From Flavobacteriaceae bacterium S0862 (lineage in GTDB: Bacteria; Bacteroidota; Bacteroidia; Flavobacteriales; Flavobacteriaceae): DNA of 64,000 bases. The DNA is taken from contig JALKAW010000004.1 of NCBI GenBank assembly GCA_023015825.1, forward strand, positions 124,001 to 188,000. Reading direction: 5' to 3'. Positions 18,914 through 55,381 of the stretch are shown one piece after another. Below the pieces are notes generated by a model. It ran no database searches and was not told the DNA's origin. It saw nothing but the letters and a program-made list of their open reading frames with translations. Every line of letters starts with the position of its first letter. Position 1 is the stretch's first letter. The position numbers were made by a program, and so were the translations under genes.

Positions 18914-20033
18914 GTTTAGATATTTTTAAAGTCGTTTTATAGGTGTTTTTGGTTTTCTTTACAGTTAGTTCGTTTTTTTTGGGATAAATTAATGCTAATC
19001 TACGTTTTAGATTTGTGAGTCCAATACCTTTCACTTCGCTTATTTCTTTAGGATCAAAGTTATTCTCTATTTTAAAATAGATGAAATCTGTATCTTCATA
19101 CAAATTGATGTGGATAAATGCATTCTCTGTAAGAGTTTCAATACCGTGTTTAAAAGCATTTTCTAATAGAATGATGAACAATAAAGGAGCTATTGATAAA
19201 CTAGTGTCTATGTGGTGTTTAAAACTAATGTCTACGGTTTTTTTATAACGAATTTTATGAAGTTCTATATAGTTGTTTAAATACTCTATTTCATCGCCTA
19301 GCTTAACGATTTCTTTTTCACCTTCGTAAATGGTGTAGCGCATCATATCAGATAACTTTAAAATAACATCTGGAGCTTGATTAGAATTTTTAATCGTTAA
19401 TGCATATAGGTTATTTAGCGTATTAAAGAAAAAATGAGGGTTTATCTGTGCTCTTAATAATGATAGTTCTGTTCTAGATTTTTCGGCTTTTAGGTTTTGC
19501 ACCCATTTCCATTGTTCAAAAACCCAAACTAAAAACAAAAAGGGAATTGGCAAAAAGAATATAACAAACGGAAAATCTTCTTTAATTTTCAAATAGGCTT
19601 CTAAATCCCCCGAAAATAATCTCAAATAAAGAAAATATAAGAGTAGTGGACCATATATAATTAAAATTAATTTCCAATATTTTTTAATGAAAGAAGGCAC
19701 CAAAACAAAGACAAAACCAATCCAAAACCCAGCGATGAGAAATAAGGTTATTGGGTTATCGGGTAAATCCATTATAGAATCAATGCCGATAGTAATAAAA
19801 AGCAAGAGAAGTAAGCTAAGTACTTTAATTATTGTTTTTTTTACCTTTTTTGAATAATTGAAAAAATGAAATGGCAAAGCAATTACCAAACCCCAAAATA
19901 TCAAATAAGGAATAATACTTAATTTTCTATCCTCTGGAAGAATAATAACACCTGTAGCTTTTAATAAATAAAATATTGGAATTACAATAAGTCCAATAAA
20001 AAAAGCTTTGTATTTCTTTAAGAAGTCAATCAT
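18906..20033 (-). CDS. LytS/YehU-type sensor histidine kinase 1
   Basis: 375 residues. About five N-terminal membrane helices without a clear periplasmic sensor domain, then the His_kinase (PF06580-type) phosphorylation motif AQINPHFFFNTLNNLYAL. The N-box LLENAFKHGIETL and a GIGLTNLKRRLAL G-box form the ATPase domain. It should autophosphorylate and pass phosphate to regulator 1. A divergent region of ~200 bp, shared with peptide gene 1, carries both its -7 box (20066-20073) and the candidate LytTR site. Confidence 0.92.
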   Translation of the reverse strand: MIDFLKKYKAFFIGLIVIPIFYLLKATGVIILPEDRKLSIIPYLIFWGLVIALPFHFFNYSKKVKKTIIKVLSLLLLLFITIGIDSIMDLPDNPITLFLIAGFWIGFVFVLVPSFIKKYWKLILIIYGPLLLYFLYLRLFSGDLEAYLKIKEDFPFVIFFLPIPFLFLVWVFEQWKWVQNLKAEKSRTELSLLRAQINPHFFFNTLNNLYALTIKNSNQAPDVILKLSDMMRYTIYEGEKEIVKLGDEIEYLNNYIELHKIRYKKTVDISFKHHIDTSLSIAPLLFIILLENAFKHGIETLTENAFIHINLYEDTDFIYFKIENNFDPKEISEVKGIGLTNLKRRLALIYPKKNELTVKKTKNTYKTTLKISKHA

Positions 20034-20065
20034 ACCCCAAATTTACTGATGATAAGTTATTCTGA

Positions 20066-20073
20066 CAAAGTTA
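20066..20073 (-). promoter_or_regulatory. Candidate -7 box of the kinase 1/regulator 1 operon
   Basis: On the minus strand TAACTTTG matches TAnnTTTG, 32 bases upstream of the kinase start codon. TTTG at 20092-20089 is a possible but closely spaced -33 element. Confidence 0.4.
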
Positions 20074-20097
20074 TTGATATACACTATTCAAATTAGT

Positions 20098-20124
20098 ACA
20101 AACACTATAATTTTTCTGATGAAC
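20098..20124 (+). promoter_or_regulatory. Candidate LytTR operator, site 1
   Basis: Two similar half-sites, ACAAAC (20098-20103) and ATGAAC (20119-20124), with a period of exactly 21 bp. This is the geometry of LytTR binding sites. The flanks TTAGTAC and GATGAACGCG are shared with site 2 at 23288-23314. It lies between kinase 1 and peptide gene 1, and 84 bp before the latter's -7 box. Confidence 0.55.
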
Positions 20125-20207
20125 GCGTTTGAGCTTGTTTTTTTGTATGAATAGCGCCATAAGACTCGCGTATATCAAATTTATTAGCACTCCCTAACGC
20201 TTCACTT

Positions 20208-20359: not shown

Positions 20360-21895
20360 ATGAAACATTTAAAAATCCTCGGTTTAGCTTTATTATGCTT
20401 CACAAATGTACTCGCCCAATCAAATAATGAAGCTCTTAATACTAAAATTAAATCTCTTGAAAAAGCCTTTGAAACAGTTTTGACCACGTCTAAAGCAGCA
20501 GGTTTTGCTATTGCTATTGTAAAAGGTAACGACGTAGTGTATGCGAAAGGCTTTGGGTATAGTGATATTGAAAATAAAACGCCTACAACTAGCAACACAG
20601 TTTTTGCTATTGGTTCAACAACTAAGGCTTTTACCGCGTCGTTAATGGGGCGCTTACGAGACCAGGGAGAAATCGATTTTGAAACCTCTCCAAGAGCGTA
20701 TATTCCTGAATTGAAATTCTTTAATTCTGAAATGAACAATCAAATAACGATTAAAGATTTAATGACGCATCGCACAGGATTACCACGCCATAGTCAGGCT
20801 TGGAAAACATTTGAAACTACATCAAAGGATGAATTTTTAGCTCGAATAGCTTATATGGAACCTGTTTCTTCTGTAAGATCAAAATTTGCTTACAATAACT
20901 TCATGTATTTTGTTCAGGGTGAAATTGCCGATCGACTTACTGACAATAGTTGGGAGCAGAATATAGAACAACACTTTTTTGAGCCATTGCAAATGACTAG
21001 TTCAACTGCCAATATTGAAGGATTGAAAAATAGCAAAAATGCGGCTGTAGGATATTATTTTGAAAATGGCAAAACAACAGAAATTGATTATAAAGACATT
21101 GGAGCTATGGGTCCTGCTGGAGGAATTAATAGCACAGTGAATGACATGTCAAAATGGATGATTGCTTGGTTAAATGAAGGACAATACAATGGCAAACAGA
21201 TATTGCCATCTAAATATGTTAAAGAGGCGATGAGCTCACAAATGATTATTTCTGGTAGATTTCCTAGAAAAATTGAGTCAAATACGTTTATGAATAACTA
21301 TGGCTACGGTTGGTTTATTTCCTCTTACAAAGGTCATTATCGTGCAGATCATGGTGGTAATATTGATGGCTTTTCGGCTAACTTAGCTTTCTATCCAGCA
21401 GATGATCTTGGCATTGTGATATTAAGCAATCAAAACAGATCGGGTGTACCACAAATCATTACAAATATTGTTGCTGATAAACTTTTTGATACACCAAAAA
21501 CCAATTGGATTGGAAAATTAGAAAAACTCATTGAGCAACAAACCCAAACAAAAGAAATCGAACCTATCCTTTCTTCGGCACCTGTATATGCCTTAAAAAA
21601 ATATACCGGAACCTATACACATAAAGGGTATGGTACCTTTGAGGTTATTAAAGAAAATGATTCTTTGTTTGCTAAATTTCCTTCAAAAACGCAATGGTTA
21701 AATCCAGTGCATCCTAATGTATTTGAAACGTTCTATGTCATAGATGATAAAGTTCAGGCTCAATATAAAGATACGAGTATCAATTTTTTAACCAATGTAA
21801 AAGGAAATATAACTGGTTTAGAAATGAAGTTGGAACGCACATTAGATCCAATAGTTTTTAATAGAGTACCTTTTAAAACAGAACCAATAAATTAA
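20360..21895 (+). CDS. Serine beta-lactamase-like hydrolase (class C/AmpH type)
   Basis: 511 residues. Signal peptide (LKILGLALLCFTNVLAQS). Class C beta-lactamase/penicillin-binding fold with SxxK in GSTTKAF (about 88-91), YxN in FAYNNFMYF, and HGG in ADHGGNIDG. A C-terminal extra domain (about 395-505) resembles DUF3471. Such proteins are periplasmic D-amino-acid peptidases or esterases; the substrate is unknown. First large gene after peptide 1; followed after 50 bases by a CAAX-type protease and a cupin. Confidence 0.85.
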   Translation: MKHLKILGLALLCFTNVLAQSNNEALNTKIKSLEKAFETVLTTSKAAGFAIAIVKGNDVVYAKGFGYSDIENKTPTTSNTVFAIGSTTKAFTASLMGRLRDQGEIDFETSPRAYIPELKFFNSEMNNQITIKDLMTHRTGLPRHSQAWKTFETTSKDEFLARIAYMEPVSSVRSKFAYNNFMYFVQGEIADRLTDNSWEQNIEQHFFEPLQMTSSTANIEGLKNSKNAAVGYYFENGKTTEIDYKDIGAMGPAGGINSTVNDMSKWMIAWLNEGQYNGKQILPSKYVKEAMSSQMIISGRFPRKIESNTFMNNYGYGWFISSYKGHYRADHGGNIDGFSANLAFYPADDLGIVILSNQNRSGVPQIITNIVADKLFDTPKTNWIGKLEKLIEQQTQTKEIEPILSSAPVYALKKYTGTYTHKGYGTFEVIKENDSLFAKFPSKTQWLNPVHPNVFETFYVIDDKVQAQYKDTSINFLTNVKGNITGLEMKLERTLDPIVFNRVPFKTEPIN

Positions 21896-21945
21896 TTAAA
21901 GTATCTCGTACTTATAAATATTTAAACACCTCAATCAAAAAGTGA

Positions 21946-22770
21946 ATGGATAAATCTACTTTAATCATGAAAAATATCAAAAATATATCACCTGTCATCT
22001 TTTCAATTATTACGCTAGTGGCCTTTGGAATTATAGGTCTATTGCCAATTGATACTATTCTTATAAAGATGTCACTGTCAGATTTTCAATCAGAATATAT
22101 TGGTTTAACACTGAAAATGACATTAATCTTAATCATAAGCTATCGTATCATAAAAGTATTAAAAATTGAACATATTATTGGGCTGTCTTCCAAATATGGT
22201 TGGAAATTTAAATATTTAAATATAATCCCTGTTTATCTCATTATACTTGGGGTTTTAAGTATTATTTCTAAAGATTTGACCCAAATTCATATAGAAAACC
22301 TATTACTACTACTTTTTGCTTGTTTAACGGTTGGGTTTGCCGAAGAATTTTTATTTAGAGGAGTATTGCAATCAGTATTTTTAAAAAAATATCTCGATCA
22401 TAAAAACGGAGTTCTTATAAGTATATTAAGTCCTGCCATAGTTTTTGGATTATTTCACCTTATTAATTTGACTAATAATGATGATGTATTTGCTGTCTTA
22501 ATTCAAGTTATATTCGCTACGTTTATTGGATTCTTTTTCGGTGTTTTAGTTTTAAAAACAAATAAAATAATACCTGTTGCAATAACTCACGGCTTAATAA
22601 ATTTTTTCTTTTCTATTGCATTTCTACCTAGTATAAAAGTTACAGAAGAAACAGGAGCCTCTATAACCTCTATACTTATATTCTTACCGCTCTTTATTAT
22701 TGGTCTTGTTGTTTTGAAAAAGATTAAAAAGGAAGATGTAATGAAAAAGTTAAATGAAAGTTTTAATTAG
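21946..22770 (+). CDS. CPBP (CAAX-type) intramembrane metalloprotease 1
   Basis: 274 residues with about eight membrane helices. All three CPBP/Abi motifs are present: EEFLFR (EExxxR), FGLFH (FxxxH) and HGLIN (HxxxN). An ATG at 21967 (MKNIKNIS) is an alternative start. Bacterial members act in bacteriocin self-immunity, peptide maturation or membrane-protein cleavage. Its place behind the 28-residue peptide gene and beside a LytTR pair recalls peptide-signal clusters, but a direct link is inference. Confidence 0.85.
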   Translation: MDKSTLIMKNIKNISPVIFSIITLVAFGIIGLLPIDTILIKMSLSDFQSEYIGLTLKMTLILIISYRIIKVLKIEHIIGLSSKYGWKFKYLNIIPVYLIILGVLSIISKDLTQIHIENLLLLLFACLTVGFAEEFLFRGVLQSVFLKKYLDHKNGVLISILSPAIVFGLFHLINLTNNDDVFAVLIQVIFATFIGFFFGVLVLKTNKIIPVAITHGLINFFFSIAFLPSIKVTEETGASITSILIFLPLFIIGLVVLKKIKKEDVMKKLNESFN

Positions 22771-23170: not shown

Positions 23171-23209
23171 AGACTATGCACTACAAGGTGTATAGTCTCT
23201 TGCTTTTTT
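23171..23209 (+). terminator. Terminator closing the hydrolase-CPBP-cupin operon
   Basis: AGACTATGCAC pairs with GTGTATAGTCT (one mismatch) around a 6-base loop, followed by TTTTTT. It lies 24 bases after the cupin stop. Confidence 0.7.
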
Positions 23210-23287
23210 AAATACTGAATCATACTTCAAAATAATTCTTGCTAGGTCATACAATCAACAATATTTATATAAGCTATTCAAATTAGT

Positions 23288-23314
23288 ACGAACACCACTC
23301 TTTTCTTGATGAAC
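23288..23314 (+). promoter_or_regulatory. Candidate LytTR operator, site 2
   Basis: ACGAAC (23288-23293) and ATGAAC (23309-23314) repeat with an exact 21-bp period. The surrounding ATTCAAATTAGTAC and TGATGAACGCG match site 1 at 20098-20124. The distance to the following -7 box is again 84 bp. Confidence 0.6.
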
Positions 23315-23397
23315 GCGATTCACGCCATTTTTTTATATGAATGGCTTTATAAAAACACCATATGTCATATTAATTATAATACGCAATCCTTTCCCTT

Positions 23398-46099: not shown

Positions 46100-46642
46100 T
46101 TAGTTTATGAGCACAATGCTTTCTATTTCCAATTGAAACTTTTCGTTAGTTTTGTTTCCAATTAAAAAAGCAATTTCTTCCATCATCTTCCCATCATAAT
46201 TTGGAACATTTACTTTATAACCTCTAAATTGAGGTACAAAATTATTGAAAGGAATTGTAATTGTTTCCCAGTCCCCGCTTGTATTAAAGGTTGAAACATA
46301 AGAATAACGCTGACGCCTATCACTCTTAATTCTAAATTGGTAAGAAGTACCATCACCTTTTAATTTTATAGATACTTTGCTATAATTTGAAACATTCTTC
46401 GAATTAAATTGATAACGCAAAGAGGAAAAACCACCATTATTCTCGGTTGTTACATCACCATAATAAATAGCATTTCCAGATTTGCCTAGCTTTATATTTC
46501 CTCTTGATAAGCCTCCCATTACTGTATCATCAACAATGTACCAATCATTAAGATTACCTGAAGCCTTAAAATTGTAAACTATTTGAGAGTTTATCTCTTC
46601 TCCAAAAAAAGTAATTAGTAGTAACAATATAAATGTTTTCAT
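46100..46642 (-). CDS. CIA30 family secreted protein
   Basis: 180 residues. Signal peptide (MKTFILLLLITFFGEEINSQ), then one CIA30 (complex I intermediate-associated protein 30) beta-sandwich domain. Its hallmarks are WYIVDDTVMGGLSRG and NNGGFSSLRYQF, and ending IGNKTNEKFQLEIESIVL. Bacterial members resemble carbohydrate-binding jelly rolls; no enzyme function is established. A TATTTTTG box lies on the minus strand at 46682-46675. Confidence 0.82.
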   Translation of the reverse strand: MKTFILLLLITFFGEEINSQIVYNFKASGNLNDWYIVDDTVMGGLSRGNIKLGKSGNAIYYGDVTTENNGGFSSLRYQFNSKNVSNYSKVSIKLKGDGTSYQFRIKSDRRQRYSYVSTFNTSGDWETITIPFNNFVPQFRGYKVNVPNYDGKMMEEIAFLIGNKTNEKFQLEIESIVLIN

Positions 46643-46745
46643 TTTTCGTTTAATATTATTAGTAAAGCATTAAACAAAAATACTATTTATACCATCTTTA
46701 AAAAAAAGTTTAACTATATTTTGGGTTTTAAAAGTTATAAGTTTT

Positions 46746-46894
46746 TTACTTTTTAAACTTTCTAAAATAGGAATCTAAGTTCCATGTTGGCCTTTCTTCT
46801 GTGACATTTATTAAATAACTATTCATAAATTGAAGCCTTACATAGGTTTTTGCAGCATCAAAATTAAACATATCAACATTTAACTCATCAATTA
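46746..46894 (-). pseudogene. Remnant of M28 peptidase 3' end
   Basis: About 49 codons, in frame to a TAA at 46748-46746. It encodes DELNVDMFNFDAAKTYVRLQ, then FMNSYLINVTEERPTWN and a RKFKK end. This matches the last codons of the intact peptidase at 48684-50342 (DELNDDMFNFDAAKTYVRLQ and TEEKPTWN), including near-identical DNA such as CATTTATTAAATAACTATTC. Homology stops abruptly near 46894, between it and the TIR gene. The rest of 46643-46942 holds nothing else. Confidence 0.85.
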
Positions 46895-46942
46895 TAGTCT
46901 GATGAATAAAGGTAATGTTAGTAATTAAAAAAGAATCCAGTA

Positions 46943-48673
46943 CTACAAGGATTCATTACTAGAATTAATTAAAAAACGCTTTTTATCCTCTTCATTTAAT
47001 TTTTCAATTGTACCAAACTTAGAATAATTATTAATTTTTGATATAATCAGCTCTGGATTTAAAGTAAAAATCCAACGTCTATCTAATTCAGGTATAGGAG
47101 GTGCAAACGGTCTAAAATTGATAAAAATAAAATTTGAATCATCTGAAAATTGATATTCATAATTAGATGATAAATCATCCCAAGGCATTACTAAATCAAT
47201 AATTTGTTCATCTTCATTATTAAATACACCAATATTTGTAATATATAATGTACTATCATTATTATACTTTTTTACAGGGCTTGAGCGCGAATAGGACTTT
47301 AGCTTTGGAGGCCATTCAATATTTAAAGTATCTAAACTTTGACTATGAAAAATTTCTTCACGTAATTGATGTTCATTTAAGGAAATGCCTAAATCTTCAA
47401 CAAATGCAGTGGCTTCGGTATCATATAAATGATAAAAATATTTTTCATGGCCATCACCCATTGGGCTATGTTCTTCAGCATTCCATGGCACATACATACT
47501 TTCGGTTAAAATTTGCTTTGATCTATCAATAAATGTAACTTTATTAATAGGATAGCGACTATTAAAATAATGCTTACGCTCTCTAAAAGAAGGAAAAAAG
47601 TAATTGCAATATTTATACAAATTTGGTTCTATTAATGTTGCAGTTGAAAATGATTGCCGAACTATTGCATATTTTCGATTTGTGGAATATAATACATCAT
47701 TTGAATCAGCCACAACTCTCCTACCTTCATAACAGTCAAATTCTGTAGGTCTTTTATCATAGATTCTTCTATCTTTTCTAAGATTGTCATCAGTAATATT
47801 ATGCTCTAGGTAAAAATCATTACCACTATAGAACACTTTTATTAATTGCTTTTTAGCTTTATCCAATGGCAAATCATTTTTTAATGCAAAAGTATATGCA
47901 TATTCGGCTAATCTAAGTGCTTTGGTTGGATCCTCATTAATTTCCGTTTGTATTGAAGCGATATAATTACCTAATAAAGCTCTTTTTGTTTCTCTTTGAG
48001 CGAGTATTTTTTGTTCATCAGCTTCAGCTTTTTTATTGAAAGCAAAAAAGGTTAAAAAAATAGATATGGTAAGAAATATTACCAGCACACTAATAACAGA
48101 ATTTCTAATTCTAATAAGTTTTTTATGCTGTTTGGTTGCTTCCCCAACCATATCTCCAATAGATTTTTTATGCATTGTAGCTGCTAACAATACAACATTG
48201 GATTTAAATTTTGGATTATCTAAATTTAATTGATCGTTTGTAAAACCTTCTCTAAAATCAACATAAAGAGGCTCATTATTAAATGCTCCTGATAGGTTTG
48301 TAGGTAAGGCTGTAGTTTTTGTCCAATCAAAATCATTTTTTGATTCATCCCAAACCAAATCACCATCTGTTAAAACAACAAGAAATTTATCTATTGATTT
48401 GTTTAACTTCCAATGTTCAACTTCTTTACGACACCATCTTGATTGTGCCGCTTTCCTCGATCCCAAAAAAATGAAATATTCTGAGTTATTAAGCCCATCT
48501 TCAATTTTCCCCCATAAATCCGGGGATGCAGATAAATCATTAGCATCTCTAAAAATTTCAAGAGCCCTCCTTTTAAACAATGGTTTAGCAAATTTTTCTA
48601 ACCCTCTTTCTAAAGAAGGTGCAAGGTCAGAGTCTTTTGCATGACTATAGGATAAGAAAGCATTATACTTCAT
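46943..48673 (-). CDS. TIR-domain membrane protein
   Basis: 576 residues. An N-terminal TIR domain (1-165) has NAFLSYSHAKDS, FRDANDLSAS, and FIFLGSRKAAQSRWCRKEVE; Glu 84 is at the NADase catalytic position. One membrane helix (191-212) follows, then about 360 residues with no domain I can name. The first part, ALLGNYIASIQTEINEDPTK then ALRLAEYAY, resembles linkers in TIR-WD40-like proteins. It could cleave NAD on sensing stress or infection; no known antiphage partner is next to it. It lies between the M28 gene and a remnant of that gene. Confidence 0.8.
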   Translation of the reverse strand: MKYNAFLSYSHAKDSDLAPSLERGLEKFAKPLFKRRALEIFRDANDLSASPDLWGKIEDGLNNSEYFIFLGSRKAAQSRWCRKEVEHWKLNKSIDKFLVVLTDGDLVWDESKNDFDWTKTTALPTNLSGAFNNEPLYVDFREGFTNDQLNLDNPKFKSNVVLLAATMHKKSIGDMVGEATKQHKKLIRIRNSVISVLVIFLTISIFLTFFAFNKKAEADEQKILAQRETKRALLGNYIASIQTEINEDPTKALRLAEYAYTFALKNDLPLDKAKKQLIKVFYSGNDFYLEHNITDDNLRKDRRIYDKRPTEFDCYEGRRVVADSNDVLYSTNRKYAIVRQSFSTATLIEPNLYKYCNYFFPSFRERKHYFNSRYPINKVTFIDRSKQILTESMYVPWNAEEHSPMGDGHEKYFYHLYDTEATAFVEDLGISLNEHQLREEIFHSQSLDTLNIEWPPKLKSYSRSSPVKKYNNDSTLYITNIGVFNNEDEQIIDLVMPWDDLSSNYEYQFSDDSNFIFINFRPFAPPIPELDRRWIFTLNPELIISKINNYSKFGTIEKLNEEDKKRFLINSSNESL

Positions 48674-48683
48674 TTATTGGCCC

Positions 48684-50342
48684 CTACTTTTTAAACTTTT
48701 TAAACTTTTTAAAGAATGAATTTTCATTCCATGTTGGTTTTTCTTCTGTAGCATTTATTAAATAACTATTCATAAATTGAAGCCTTACATAGGTTTTTGC
48801 AGCATCAAAATTAAACATATCATCATTTAACTCATCAGATGGTTTATGATAATGGTTTTTTGTAAAATCATTAATAATGGAGTCCAAACCTGTTTCAGAA
48901 GTTTCCGTTTTTAAGCCATATTTCATACGCAACGCAGGAATGCCTTCTAGTACAAAATTTAAATTATCACTTCGCACAAACCTTACCTGCTCTGGCATAT
49001 GGTCAGGATCAATACGTAAGTTTAATTGTTTTGCAGATCTTTCAACTAAATTCATAATACTACTCTGCTCTGCTCCTAATGGCTCGATCGATAGCATTGG
49101 AGCTATTAAAGTTGGCATATCCGTATTAACATTTGCAATGATTTTGCTTTGATCAACAGGCGGATTTACAGCTAGATATTTAGAACCTAGTAATCCCATT
49201 TCTTCGGCTGTAACCGCAGCAAAAATCACTGATCGCTTTGGCTTAGTTGGTAATTTACTATACAATCTAGCAATTTCAATCATAGCACTTATCCCTGAGG
49301 CATTATCGTGAGCACCATTATAAATTGAATCACCATTAATTGGTCTACCAATGCCAACATGATCTAAATGTGCTGTATGGACTATATATTCATCTTTTAG
49401 CTCCCCGCCTTCTAACAATCCAAGGACATTGGCACTTTCAAATTGCTTGAGTGTTGTTACTACCTTTCCGTTTAATTGAACAGATTGTAATGACTGCTTT
49501 AGAGCGTCACCATTTTCACTATAGCTTTTCCAATCTTCTTCTGTAAACCCTGTAAGTTTAGCTAATGATGACCAATTAAAATAGCCGCCAAATTTCATAT
49601 TACCAAAATTAGATCTACCAAGGGCTGTTCCATATGGCAATAACACACTATTGATACCTCGTTGTGACATTCTATCAAAACTTCCTTTAAAATTACCTCG
49701 CCCACCTGGAGCTGTTACAAATAATATGCCTTGTGCACCTAAATTGTCTAGTGTCGTAATTTTTGTATTAGTATTACTAAAGTAAGCTCTTTCACTTGCT
49801 GGCAAAGAACTAGGGGCTCCACTAAATATGGCAACAATTTTTCCTTTAACATCTAAGTTTTCAAAATCATTAAAACCATATTCGGGTGCTTCGACACCAT
49901 AACCAGCAATCACTAAATCTCCTGAAAAATCCGTTAAAATTTCGTTGGCATTTCCTGTAAAAAAATAATCTTCACCCACTTGGAGCGTGTCCTTATCGTT
50001 TAAGACCATATACGATTGTTCATTCTTAACCACAGAGTTTCGCAACTCCAATGTTTGATAATATGTACTTCGCTCCTTATCTCCTATTGGTGTAATACCA
50101 AACTCTTTATATCTATCAGCTACATAAGCCATAGCTTGCTTATATTCTGATGTCCCAGGAAGCCTACCCTTTAAGCTATCGTCAGCAAGCACAGCAATAT
50201 GATGCCTAATATCTTCTGGATTTACAGATTCCGTAAATTCAGCTAATGCTTTATCGCTTAATAAGGATTCTTCCCTACAACTGGTAGTGAAAATGATGCT
50301 CACACCTAAAAAAAGGTAGATTATTTTTTTATAAAAATTCAT
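48684..50342 (-). CDS. M28 family aminopeptidase with PA domain, lipoprotein
   Basis: 552 residues. Lipoprotein signal with Cys 22 (IIFTTSC). A PA insert domain (about 140-280), then the zinc peptidase core: HTAHLDHVGIG, NGAHDNASGISAMIE, VTAEEMGLLGSKYL, NVNTDMP, and HYHKPSDELN. All metal ligands are present. It should remove N-terminal residues in the envelope. Starts 26 bases after the upstream membrane-protein gene and so may share its transcript. Confidence 0.88.
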   Translation of the reverse strand: MNFYKKIIYLFLGVSIIFTTSCREESLLSDKALAEFTESVNPEDIRHHIAVLADDSLKGRLPGTSEYKQAMAYVADRYKEFGITPIGDKERSTYYQTLELRNSVVKNEQSYMVLNDKDTLQVGEDYFFTGNANEILTDFSGDLVIAGYGVEAPEYGFNDFENLDVKGKIVAIFSGAPSSLPASERAYFSNTNTKITTLDNLGAQGILFVTAPGGRGNFKGSFDRMSQRGINSVLLPYGTALGRSNFGNMKFGGYFNWSSLAKLTGFTEEDWKSYSENGDALKQSLQSVQLNGKVVTTLKQFESANVLGLLEGGELKDEYIVHTAHLDHVGIGRPINGDSIYNGAHDNASGISAMIEIARLYSKLPTKPKRSVIFAAVTAEEMGLLGSKYLAVNPPVDQSKIIANVNTDMPTLIAPMLSIEPLGAEQSSIMNLVERSAKQLNLRIDPDHMPEQVRFVRSDNLNFVLEGIPALRMKYGLKTETSETGLDSIINDFTKNHYHKPSDELNDDMFNFDAAKTYVRLQFMNSYLINATEEKPTWNENSFFKKFKKFKK

Positions 50343-50368: not shown

Positions 50369-51853
50369 TTAATTCTGTTTAGCTTTATCGATTAACAAAT
50401 CCATTATTTGTTGAGTTTCTTTATTATTCTCTTTTTTGACTTCATAAATCATGGCATTTGGATTCAGTATTTCCAAATTTGGAGAGCTTTTATCTAGCGT
50501 TTTAAACTTTTCCTGAATTACCTTTTTAATAAGAGGTATCGCATTAGTATAACCTAAAAATAAGATATTTTCAAGTTTTACAGAATTGAGTAATAAATTC
50601 ACCTCGTATTCACAGCCTTTATTTTTCTCAGAAAAACCACGAAGATCCATTAACACCACATTTGCTGTTGTAACTAATTTTTCTACAGTTATTTTCCATG
50701 TGTTATCATGACAAGACATTGGTTTTTCCTTAAATGTATTGTCAAGTTTAACGGGTTGTTTAATAAGCTTTTCAAGTTCTTTGTTTAGTTCTTCCTTATT
50801 ACTTACAAAATCCAATTTCATACGACGTCTGCTATATATTATAAATACAATTGCAGCAATGATCATTAAAAAAACAAATGGTGCAAATGGAGAGCCTGTA
50901 CCAGAATCCGCTGATGAATTTTCAAGTTGAGTGTATATTAAAAATATAAAAACAATGATGACCGGAAACTTATGGTTAAACTTTCTTTTCCAATACACTC
51001 GATAAAATGAAGGGTCTGCAACTGTAAAATACGAACCAAAATGTTTCCAAAATTTTGCTAAACTAGAAAAAGTAAACATTGAAGTTTTACTTATTAAGAA
51101 TACACGAAGAATTAAAAGCTTTAAATTAGGTCTTTTCCTAGCCTTGCTTCTTATTCTATTAATTAGGAATAAGTGAAAAATTGCTGGGATAAGAAAAATT
51201 ATGCCATCATCATAGTCCCCAAAAAGAAATCCTGAGAGAGCTTTTAGCAATGTACTTAATATCACTACTAAAGCCAATAATATATACCATCTTGTTTGAA
51301 AAATAGCAAATACCAATTTCCATATAGGTGAAACAAATCTAAATAACCCTTCTTGATAGGCTTTAAATTGATGCCTAAATCCAATAAATCGCATTATTGT
51401 CCAAATCAAGAATAAAGTCAGATATAAAAAATAAGGCAAGGCCTCTAAAGGATACTCGGCGTAAATAACTAAGGCTACAATAAAATACACAAGAACAATT
51501 AAAAGGTCTAGTTTAAATTGCTGATTCATGACTTTCTTTGCATTATCAACCATTTGGTGCCGATTAAGTGAGGTGTCACTAAAATCTGATTCAGAATTTA
51601 GAATAGTAAACTTAATTGTATTACTGTTTTGAATTTCAGCTATTTGTAATTCTATATCTGAACCCTTTATTTTTTTGGATTTAGACATCATACCACGATT
51701 CATAACTTTCATTAAAATAAATCGTGAAAAAATTGCTATTAATATGGCTATGATGATAATTACAAAGCGATTGGCTAAACCTATCTCAGGGTTTTGAGTA
51801 AAAAAAATCAATGACAAATTTGGAGCCAACAAAAAAATAAATAAATTAATCAT
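50369..51853 (-). CDS. Multi-pass membrane protein with C-terminal MDLRGF domain
   Basis: 494 residues. About seven membrane helices (two near the N-terminus, three or four in 115-240, one or two in 300-340), then a soluble C-terminal region (about 375-494). This contains VVLMDLRGFSEKNKGCEYEV followed by LENILFLGYTNAIPLI and an ending ILNPNAMIYEV. I recall a similar MDLRGF...GC.xE block in membrane proteins of other bacteria, but not a named family. The alternating beta/alpha pattern recalls TIR- or SLOG-like folds. It is first in a presumed operon with the M28 peptidase and lies just before the TIR gene. Confidence 0.65.
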   Translation of the reverse strand: MINLFIFLLAPNLSLIFFTQNPEIGLANRFVIIIIAILIAIFSRFILMKVMNRGMMSKSKKIKGSDIELQIAEIQNSNTIKFTILNSESDFSDTSLNRHQMVDNAKKVMNQQFKLDLLIVLVYFIVALVIYAEYPLEALPYFLYLTLFLIWTIMRFIGFRHQFKAYQEGLFRFVSPIWKLVFAIFQTRWYILLALVVILSTLLKALSGFLFGDYDDGIIFLIPAIFHLFLINRIRSKARKRPNLKLLILRVFLISKTSMFTFSSLAKFWKHFGSYFTVADPSFYRVYWKRKFNHKFPVIIVFIFLIYTQLENSSADSGTGSPFAPFVFLMIIAAIVFIIYSRRRMKLDFVSNKEELNKELEKLIKQPVKLDNTFKEKPMSCHDNTWKITVEKLVTTANVVLMDLRGFSEKNKGCEYEVNLLLNSVKLENILFLGYTNAIPLIKKVIQEKFKTLDKSSPNLEILNPNAMIYEVKKENNKETQQIMDLLIDKAKQN

Positions 51854-52002
51854 GGTTGGTTGGTAAGTGTTAAGGTATTGAAGATACGTTTTTTTTTAAA
51901 TCAAATTACAAACGGACTAACTTCTGAGCATTTTGATATATTCAATAATAGAGTTATTTTTCTATATATTTATAATTATTAAACAACTTTTTTTAAAAGG
52001 AT

Positions 52003-53877
52003 ATGAAATATTCTCTTTCGTTTTTTTTATTTTTTTGTTGGCTCCAAAGTTATTCTCAAGATTTGGTTAATTCTGAAATAAAAAGTAATTACCAACAAGG
52101 TATAGCCTTTCTTGAAGAAAAGAAATTTGATAAGGCAATAATTAGTTTTAATAAAGGCATAAAAGTTTCTAAATCTTTGGATAATGCAGCATTAATCGCT
52201 CTTGGCCAATTTAATCTAAGTGAATGTTATTTAGCTCTAAATAAACACCTTGAATCTATTAATACTGCTAATGAAGCTTTAATTCTATATAAGCGTTTGA
52301 AAAGAAATATCGAAATATCCAACTGTTATGCAAGACTTGGAGACATATATTTTAAAATTTCAAACTTTGACACGTCGCATAACTATTATTTTGAAGCCTT
52401 AAAAATTAAAGAGCAGCTAAACGACGAACTTGGTATTGCTGAAAACCTTGTTAGCATTGGTAAAATATATAAAATCACACCTGACCCAGATTTAGATCTT
52501 CCAAAAGCAAGGGTGAATTTTAACAAAGCATTAAAAATTTATGAAAAGCTTGGTCATCAAGAAGGAATCATTTATAGTTTGACAGATATTGGAGCAATTA
52601 ATTTAAAAGAAGGGATTAATCACTCCGATCAAGAAAAAATAGTAAAAGCTATTGATATTTTTAAGCAAGCTTTAGTAAAAGCTGAAAATTTAAAATTAGT
52701 AAAAAGTCAAGCTATATTGTTAGGTAATATTGGACCTTCTTTACGAATGCTCGATAGAAATGAGGAATCTCTTGATTATTTATTTAGAGCATTAGAAATT
52801 AAATTAATTCTTAAAGATTCCACAAGTGCAGCACATTCTTGTAACGATATATCGGAAACATATATTGCTATGAATGATTTATATAACGCGAAGAAATATG
52901 CATTAAAAGCTGTTGATTTGGCAAAGGGAGTAAGCCTCAATCAAGAGAGGTTTGCTTTTTATTTACTATCTGAAATAAACAATAGCTTAGGTGATTATAA
53001 AAGTGCAAACAATGATTTAAAGCAATTCTATAAGTTAGCGGATAGTATATTTTCAGCACAAAAAATGATGAAAATTAATGAGAACCAAATTAAATATGAA
53101 ACTGAAAAGAAAAGTCTCACCATAAAAGCGCAGGAAAGTGATATTGCATTGCTCAATGAGAAAAACAAGGTAAAAAATCAGTATATGGTTTTGGGCACAT
53201 TTGTGTTAATTTCTGTATTTGGCTTTATTATTATTGTAAGGTCCAGAAACAGAGAGAAGCACAAGCAATTACTGCAAGCACAATTTTCTAGAGATTTATT
53301 GCAATCACAAGAAGAAGAAAGGATCCGTATTGCAAAAGATTTGCATGATAGTGTTGGACAACAACTAACCTTAATAAAAAAGAAATCTCAAAAGGTAAAT
53401 CAGGAAGAAATTAGCCAGCTTACCAATAATGCACTGGAAGATGTAAGAAGTATTTCAAGAGGGTTGTATCCAGCTATGCTCCATCAATTTGGATTAACAG
53501 ATAGTATTGAACAATTAATATTAGATTTTGACGAACAGACAGATTTATTCTTTTCATCAGACATTGCAAACATAGATGCGTATTTAAATGAAGAAGAGAG
53601 TTTAAATTTTTATAGATTTATGCAAGAGAGCCTAAGTAATGTTGTGAAGCATTCTAAGGCCAAGGCTGTTTCAGTTTTTATTGAGAAACTACAAGATAAA
53701 ATTTCAGTCTCCATACAAGATAATGGGATTGGTTTCATTATTAATGAAGCCAAAAAACAAAATAGCCTAGGATTAAAAACACTTGCTGAACGAATTGAAA
53801 TATTAAAAGGGAAATTTAAAATTGATAGTCAACTCAAAAAAGGCACAACACTTTCTGCTATAATACCGACAGCATGA
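52003..53877 (+). CDS. TPR-domain sensor histidine kinase (NarX/LiaS type)
   Basis: 624 residues. Signal peptide (MKYSLSFFLFFCWLQSYSQ), about seven TPR units (about 30-340) in the periplasm, a coiled coil and one membrane helix (about 390-410). The HisKA_3 motif RIRIAKDLHDSVGQQLT and the HATPase N-box MQESLSNVVKHSKA with DNGIGF follow. The family senses through the TPR part and phosphorylates a LuxR-type regulator, here the next gene, which overlaps by 4 bases. Confidence 0.92.
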   Translation: MKYSLSFFLFFCWLQSYSQDLVNSEIKSNYQQGIAFLEEKKFDKAIISFNKGIKVSKSLDNAALIALGQFNLSECYLALNKHLESINTANEALILYKRLKRNIEISNCYARLGDIYFKISNFDTSHNYYFEALKIKEQLNDELGIAENLVSIGKIYKITPDPDLDLPKARVNFNKALKIYEKLGHQEGIIYSLTDIGAINLKEGINHSDQEKIVKAIDIFKQALVKAENLKLVKSQAILLGNIGPSLRMLDRNEESLDYLFRALEIKLILKDSTSAAHSCNDISETYIAMNDLYNAKKYALKAVDLAKGVSLNQERFAFYLLSEINNSLGDYKSANNDLKQFYKLADSIFSAQKMMKINENQIKYETEKKSLTIKAQESDIALLNEKNKVKNQYMVLGTFVLISVFGFIIIVRSRNREKHKQLLQAQFSRDLLQSQEEERIRIAKDLHDSVGQQLTLIKKKSQKVNQEEISQLTNNALEDVRSISRGLYPAMLHQFGLTDSIEQLILDFDEQTDLFFSSDIANIDAYLNEEESLNFYRFMQESLSNVVKHSKAKAVSVFIEKLQDKISVSIQDNGIGFIINEAKKQNSLGLKTLAERIEILKGKFKIDSQLKKGTTLSAIIPTA

Positions 53878-54521
53878 TGAATCATAAAATTAAAATATTA
53901 GTAGCAGATGATCATCCAATGCTACTTAAGGGCTTGATAAACGAATTAATGGATCAAGGGTTCAATGTGCTAGAAGGAGCCTCTAATGGAGCTCAAGCGT
54001 TACATACTATAGGCTCTGAAGTGCCAGATATTGCAATTATAGACATTAATATGCCGTTGCTTAATGGTTTTGAAGTTGTCAATAAATGTAAAGAAAAAGG
54101 AATAAGCACGCGTTTTATTATTCTTACTTCTTATAAAGAGAAGAGTTACATATTAAAAGCTAAAAAATTAAATATTTCAGGATATTTGTTAAAAGACGAA
54201 CCATTTATTGAAATTAAAAGATGTATTCAGTCTGTATTAAAAGGTGAATTTTATGCCAGCAAAGTTTTTAACCAAATAGTTAATACTGAAATTTCACCTC
54301 AATTAGAAAAAATTAAACATCTCTCTCCCTCAGAGCGTACCATAGTTAGGTTAATTGCTCAAAATAAATCATCAAAAGAAATTGCAGACCTTCTTACTAT
54401 TTCACACCGCACAGTACAAAAGCATAGATCCAATATCATATCGAAATTGGATTTACCATCAGATTCTGATGCGCTATCACATTGGGTGTTGATAAACAAA
54501 GAACTTTTAATTTCAGTCTAA
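53874..54521 (+). CDS. NarL/LuxR-type response regulator
   Basis: 215 residues. Receiver with DDH (12-14), phospho-Asp 57 (IIDINMPLLNG) and LLKDEP near 108; GerE/LuxR helix-turn-helix (about 150-205) with LSPSERTIVRLIAQNKSSKE and LTISHRTVQKHRSNI. Starts within the kinase stop (ATGA). The likely target is directly downstream, where four TACGTA-like boxes lie before the next gene (54554-54590). Confidence 0.93.
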   Translation: MMNHKIKILVADDHPMLLKGLINELMDQGFNVLEGASNGAQALHTIGSEVPDIAIIDINMPLLNGFEVVNKCKEKGISTRFIILTSYKEKSYILKAKKLNISGYLLKDEPFIEIKRCIQSVLKGEFYASKVFNQIVNTEISPQLEKIKHLSPSERTIVRLIAQNKSSKEIADLLTISHRTVQKHRSNIISKLDLPSDSDALSHWVLINKELLISV

Positions 54522-54553
54522 CTAATTGTTTTACTGTTATTTAGTAAATGCTG

Positions 54554-54590
54554 TACGTACCTATACGTATTTTATGTACTACCCTACGTA
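54554..54590 (+). promoter_or_regulatory. Array of TACGTA boxes, candidate LuxR-type regulator sites
   Basis: TACGTA at 54554-54559, 54564-54569 and 54585-54590, with a variant TATGTA at 54573-54578. The start points are about 10, 9 and 12 bp apart, so on nearly one face of the helix. It lies between the regulator stop and the secreted-protein gene at 54653, where an activator site would be expected. Confidence 0.55.
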
Positions 54591-54652
54591 TTTCTTTTTC
54601 ATATGATGAAATCTACATTTACATCATATTAATCATTTAAAACTTCTGCATC

Positions 54653-55159
54653 ATGAAAACAATTGTATTAGGTCTGTTAATTATTGGATTTACCACCCAA
54701 ATACACTCCCAAACAAACAATCTGTCAATTTTTAAAAATATTAAGTATTTAGAAAAGGTCAAAAATGAAGGTAGCCCAGTAATTATTAAAAAAATGGAAA
54801 ATATAGCTGCAGAATATGACATTCAAAAGGCTGATGTATTTAATCCAAAAAGGAAAGGTACTTACGATGTGACTTTTGAAGAGACTAGTGGGAAAATTGT
54901 AGCTACGTACAACAAAAAAGGCAAGCTAATTAAAACCATTGAGGTTTATAATAATTTAAAGCTACCGCTACAAGTAAGTAAAAGTATTTCTAAAGAATAC
55001 CCAGGTTGGATTTTTACCGGAAACACTCATGAAGTCTTATACAACAAAGGAAAAGTAAAGAAGCTTTATCGCATTCAAATAAAAAATAATAACTCGAAAA
55101 AAGAATTGAAATTTGAATTAAAAAGTGGCGCAGAAGCCAATTATGCGGCTGTAAACTAA
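54653..55159 (+). CDS. Secreted PepSY-like protein
   Basis: 168 residues. Signal peptide MKTIVLGLLIIGFTTQIHSQ. The C-terminal ~90 residues show a PepSY-like pattern (YDVTFEETSGKIVATYNKKG, LQVSKSISKEYPGWIF, and KVKKLYRIQI). Such domains are small periplasmic proteins that may inhibit peptidases or bind envelope proteins. It is the likely main target of the TPR kinase/LuxR regulator pair next to it, and has its own terminator. Confidence 0.7.
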   Translation: MKTIVLGLLIIGFTTQIHSQTNNLSIFKNIKYLEKVKNEGSPVIIKKMENIAAEYDIQKADVFNPKRKGTYDVTFEETSGKIVATYNKKGKLIKTIEVYNNLKLPLQVSKSISKEYPGWIFTGNTHEVLYNKGKVKKLYRIQIKNNNSKKELKFELKSGAEANYAAVN

Positions 55160-55232
55160 TATAGATCATTGTTAGTAGTAATTTTTTTGGGTATTAAATT
55201 TAATACTTCAATTATCTAGTTAACAGTCAAAT

Positions 55233-55260
55233 AAATCCCTTTCTTTCGAAAGGGATTTTT
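55233..55260 (+). terminator. Terminator after the PepSY-like gene
   Basis: AAATCCCTTTC-TTTC-GAAAGGGATTT followed by TT, a strong 11-bp stem 73 bases after the stop. Confidence 0.75.
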
Positions 55261-55381
55261 GGTTTTAAGTATTTGATATTCATTATTATTTACGAAAGAT
55301 TCTTTTTTTTTGCTAAATTCGCAGACCCTAACAATCCAAATTCTACACATCGTTCTGCTTACTGATTATTTTTGCTATTAA

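Follow-up and report, generated by a model that had tools for sequence, protein, structure and literature searches.

In E. coli, DNA that is homologous at one end to the 3' end of lacZ mostly yields partial lacZ duplications of 109-950 bp, which were explained by shortened molecules that had recircularised and then integrated by a single crossover (PMC3240628). Homology-facilitated illegitimate recombination (HFIR) has been described for Acinetobacter, Pseudomonas stutzeri and Streptococcus pneumoniae (PMC3240628), and the formation of merodiploids by transformation was shown in pneumococcus (PMC3784515). For the T6SS arrays of Vibrio, a homology-facilitated capture was proposed, during which downstream genes are kept and the effector 3' end is shifted back (PMC5361080). 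Stand-alone defence genes often lie outside recognisable mobile elements and the route by which they arrived is rarely visible. Here, we describe a TIR gene, putatively involved in immunity, of the marine Flavobacteriaceae bacterium S0862; it is still surrounded by a readable scar, which points to a capture mediated by a short homologous segment at just one end.

A repeated peptidase 3' end around a TIR gene

The window that we analysed is a stretch of 64,000 nucleotides of the S0862 genome. Its minus strand carries, in this order, an intact M28 peptidase gene (48684-50342; 552 aa; PF04389, E=1e-37), 10 nt, a TIR gene (46943-48673; 576 aa), a 52-nt TIR 3' flank (46891-46942) and a remnant of the M28 3' end corresponding to its last ~48 codons and stop (46742-46890). 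A gene encoding a CIA30-domain protein comes next on the same strand (46100-46642; 180 aa; PF08547, E=2e-39), and the other neighbours are a CSD gene and a gene encoding a 494-aa protein without Pfam match.

An earlier note on this DNA had described the remnant as an in-frame copy, ~80% identical to the end of the intact gene, whose homology stops sharply where the TIR 3' flank begins. Our comparison confirmed that the remnant and the last 149 nt of the intact gene (48689-48837) form an ungapped direct repeat with 90% identity (E about 1e-52), of which only two copies, both on the minus strand, exist in the whole 3.35-Mb assembly, enclosing the TIR gene as the sole gene between them. The reading frame of the remnant is preserved up to its own TAA (translation IDELNVDMFNFDAAKTYVRLQFMNSYLINVTEERPTWNLDSYFRKFKK, then the stop) and its amino-acid identity with the M28 tail (~85%, own count) is slightly better than what had been noted. 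As for its edge at 46890/46891, it is sharp or nearly so, since the similarity over the next 45 nt is only marginally above that of shuffled sequences (p=0.07); by this boundary test, the 52-nt flank starting there is a candidate illegitimate joint. The upstream copy displays a private 9-nt TTTAAAAAG doubling right before the M28 stop, beside the TIR junction, which is found in the intact copy only.

The explanation that we consider rather probable for this arrangement is a single-crossover or homology-facilitated one-ended capture of the TIR gene. DNA carrying a homologous M28 3'-end piece followed by the TIR gene would have entered the lineage and then integrated via this short homology alone. 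It could have done so after circularisation, by one crossover, or in linear form, by HFIR with its other end joined at 46890/46891. The outcome would be an M28 gene with a rebuilt tail, the TIR gene, the left-over native M28 tail and then the CIA30 gene, with the M28 protein remaining complete. We prefer such a one-ended capture because one event explains the repeat, the intact M28 gene, the kept remnant and the additive gain; incoming DNA with homology at one end and the direction of the event are what we infer. Since the TIR start codon is located only 10 nt past the M28 stop, the TIR gene is probably co-transcribed with M28, and a one-end capture would then leave the neighbour gene whole while putting the new gene in its transcript.

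Orthologous loci and the age of the duplication

Four orthologues of the M28 gene were found: in Gaetbulibacter sp. S0825 (G002; 94%), which is the closest relative, in Pontimicrobium aquaticum (G001; about 86%), in an uncultured MAG (G005, locus L008; 81%) and in Formosa maritima (74%), so that identities are 81-94% within the genus and lower in Formosa. Neither the TIR gene nor the remnant is present beside M28 at any of these loci (4/4), and in the two closest genus members, no TIR homologue was detected at E<=1e-20. The suggestion in the earlier note that the TIR gene is a newcomer is supported by these comparisons: relatives carrying M28 without the TIR gene, for which it had proposed to look, do exist, and a TIR gene with its remnant in all relatives, which would have spoken against it, was not seen.

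In the MAG, the order is M28-CIA30-CSD, with M28 leading straight into CIA30 and nothing between them, and the window segment made of the remnant, CIA30 and CSD aligns unbroken to positions 5135-6227 of L008 (81%). This contiguity and this unbroken alignment place the remnant at the native M28/CIA30 junction and make the block composed of an M28 tail and the TIR gene the apparent addition upstream of it. The target-sequence direct repeat around the insert that a capture should leave is thus found in S0862 and missing at the empty sites, the MAG providing the clean comparison. The remnant also shares its stop position with the P. aquaticum, MAG and Formosa genes, in contrast to the intact copy, which is privately extended.

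S0825 does not offer a clean empty site: its cold-shock gene directly follows M28 and CIA30 is missing, with a break at the CIA30 stop codon, so this locus is compatible with a TIR gene that was never present as well as with one that was deleted together with CIA30. A single deletion in S0825 could have taken an older TIR-remnant-CIA30 block. The CIA30 gene shifts from one genome to another: it is behind M28 in the MAG and in the window, before M28 in P. aquaticum, absent in S0825 and beside LysM and CSD genes in genome G003, where M28 of this type is absent. Because the arrangement differs in these last three genomes, we consider the M28-CIA30 interval as unusually fluid. Another strain-specific gain beside the M28-TIR locus is a 3.4-kb stretch (51887-55304) with a TPR histidine kinase and a response regulator (52003-54521, plus strand), which is absent in S0825, where 43 bp are found instead.

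The intact tail differs from the remnant at 15/149 positions, exactly as it does from the S0825 tail. The duplication would date to about the split from S0825 or later, allowing for a faster decay of the remnant. Over the 149 nt, 3 changes are private to the intact tail, 8 to the remnant and 5 to the S0825 tail, and a tree shows a near-trifurcation of the three sequences, with a support of only 41-65% for grouping the intact tail with the remnant, so that age and direction are not fixed by it; dating by the remnant was rejected for this lack of resolution. The private-change counts also did not support the ancestral-looking stop of the remnant as a proof of foreign origin, and this argument was dropped.

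The higher count in the remnant, together with its open frame, is what one would expect of a decaying gene, and the remnant might then be all that is left of another full-length M28 gene in tandem, with the TIR gene initially located between two paralogues. Considering that the other ~500 codons left no trace, that none of the relatives has tandem copies of this M28 gene and that the boundary is at least nearly sharp, we regard such a history as improbable.

Mismatches between the intact tail and the remnant are clustered, with 1/86 in the first part and 14/63 in the last part of the repeat (p=2e-5), as a crossover or a conversion inside the repeat would leave, which is suggestive only. Since this last part is also the faster-diverging one in comparisons between species (4/86 versus 11/63), a foreign origin of the intact M28 tail is only suggested by this pattern. 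The earlier note had also proposed to look at the composition and codon use of the TIR gene, and this turned out to be weak evidence: its GC3 (0.179) is the lowest of the 42 window genes (mean 0.231, sd 0.031), but its overall GC content is ordinary and its codon choice, although extreme, goes in the genome's own AT-rich direction, for which reason composition was set aside as a proof of foreignness.

Flanking repeats at other TIR genes

TIR homologues (E<=1e-20) were detected in 12/397 genomes of the family, in unrelated neighbourhoods, the nearest ones being about 64% identical, and none of the genomes searched has the M28-TIR adjacency expected of a donor. At one locus from another genus (L025), a TIR homologue that is 60-64% identical in its N-terminal half is bracketed by a 116-nt repeat (82%) made of the last ~23 codons of the upstream gene and 47 nt of its 3' flank. 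This upstream gene is unrelated to M28, the downstream copy is interrupted by a premature stop and no core shared by the M28 and L025 repeats was noted. A second, 50-nt piece (r2) directly follows in the upstream copy and is found downstream only past an intervening 192-codon gene, as expected if the donor lacked this gene, the recipient had it and the integration was one-ended; r2 suggests that the donor shared this flank.

The earlier note had offered two histories, an insertion into a tandem duplicate or a capture by recombination through a partial duplication, and it is the capture that fits better, since one event suffices and since a similar footprint is found at L025. Had slippage during replication or an unequal exchange first duplicated the M28 3' end partially in tandem, with the TIR gene arriving between the copies later, the final order would be identical, and such a duplication may be old, as the copies are as divergent as the intact and S0825 tails. 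However, two events are then needed at one spot, the same coincidence is required again at L025 behind an unrelated gene, and none of the relatives has the duplication without the TIR gene; we therefore find this order of events rather unlikely.

The S0862 genome has a second TIR gene (G000:C36:42408-44486; L033 6409-8487), which is 42% identical to the window TIR. It is flanked by weaker intergenic direct repeats of 162 nt (72%) and 93 nt (73%), in swapped order, and its surroundings have almost no match in five genus members. Empty sites were not found for L025, L031, L033 and L029, where relatives show no synteny.

Among the loci compared, 3/14 TIR genes have some flanking repeat, compared to 2/239 non-TIR genes (p=0.001). 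A repeat of the 3' end of the upstream gene was found at 2/14 TIR loci and at none of about 780 control genes (Fisher p=3e-4). The sample behind this comparison is small, the control matches were classified visually, and the case that prompted the question is one of the two. In 788 kb of the S0862 genome, only 14/582 genes are spanned by a direct repeat at E<1e-6, so that the repeat around the window TIR gene lies far beyond chance expectation; by inspection, these are mostly 5' ends or leaders of tandem paralogues and were rejected as instances of the same scar.

Several other repeats were seen on the way. Tandem families of small proteins starting with MIKFFRKIRY (G000:C33:20636-23422 and C32:16430-18267; L067 and L101) have only their N-terminal ~50 codons in common, with one pair of copies having a 98% identical 54-nt repeat, and a 64-nt direct repeat (92%; G000:C36:134744-135727; L087) surrounds a deoC-like gene (134926-135591) just past a clpB-like gene. 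In the window, a 173-nt direct repeat (69%; 20014-20186 and 23204-23376), with copies ~3 kb apart, surrounds the genes at 20360-22770 upstream of an ABC transporter, and a 30-nt inverted repeat (93%; 51816-51845 and 52022-52051) gives two unrelated genes, which are divergently oriented, a shared stretch of signal-peptide-like coding DNA at their 5' ends; this may be due to chance in T-rich DNA.

The similar footprint at two unrelated sites, the repeats at the second TIR gene of S0862 and the presence of TIR homologues at many sites, 10/14 of them co-directional with the upstream gene (own count), would also be compatible with a TIR gene that moves as a single-gene element, autonomous or trans-mobilised, inserting itself after stop codons and either duplicating or restoring the 3' end of its target. 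Against this, neither an integrase, a transposase, a shared end sequence nor the conserved att core of a site-specific integrative element was found, and the repeats enclose no gene other than the TIR gene; the sites differ in the length and sequence of their repeats, and 11/14 homologues have no flanking repeat. Phage carriage of the TIR gene was also examined and rejected, since phage records gave no match and viral contigs no confirmed relative, and so was plasmid carriage, for which matches were distant TIR domains covering <=34% of the query. We hold such an element to be very unlikely. A broader idea, that TIR-TM-propeller immune genes of marine flavobacteria recurrently spread as one-gene units without their own integrase, settling behind unrelated genes and leaving the 3' end of the target gene duplicated over 116-149 nt, is at this stage speculative and has, in our opinion, little chance of holding in this general form. 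The recurrence at a related TIR gene from another genus nevertheless lets a general entry route for single immune genes be asked about.

The TIR protein and its locus compared with described systems

The TIR protein matches TIR_2 (PF13676; E=3.5e-9), ThsB_TIR (PF08937; E=3e-5) and the PADLOC ThsB model (E=4e-7) through its N-terminal domain, and the glutamate of its WC..E motif is aligned across the TIR homologues compared. It thus combines a TIR domain and a catalytic glutamate, as TIR-domain NADase defence proteins do. Hydropathy indicates one TM helix at about aa 193-211, followed by a C-terminal region without assignment. The C-terminal half is common to six homologues at 23-37% identity, with other homologues having different sequences instead, including WD40-like repeats (L036); a single-sequence structure prediction (mean pLDDT 42.6) was uninformative for this half. 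These features suggest that the protein is likely a membrane-anchored TIR effector with an exchangeable C-terminal sensor, and its family membership makes it probably an NAD-consuming or signal-making anti-phage effector. Like Thoeris ThsB and SpbK (PMC12847820), it has a TIR domain with a conserved WC..E glutamate; unlike them, it has one membrane helix together with a C-terminal half that varies, and the adjacent genes include neither ThsA nor another partner.

Regarding the locus, the capture of the TIR gene that we propose is an instance of an already known type of recombination. As in the lacZ conjugation system (PMC3240628), the cargo is flanked by a partial duplication of the 3' part of the target gene, and the duplication sizes reported there (109-950 bp) bracket the 116 and 149 nt found here, although that system relied on a laboratory plasmid whereas the event in the window is natural. 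HFIR similarly captures foreign DNA through one homologous anchor and one illegitimate joint, but it usually deletes recipient DNA in experiments, while the net result here is additive. The T6SS immunity-gene arrays and Rhs orphan 3' ends of Vibrio cholerae (PMC5361080) also resemble this locus, with a new gene inserted upstream and the old downstream gene and gene 3' end retained further back. In those arrays, it is the effector that is displaced, whereas here the anchor gene M28 stays complete and is functionally unrelated to the cargo.
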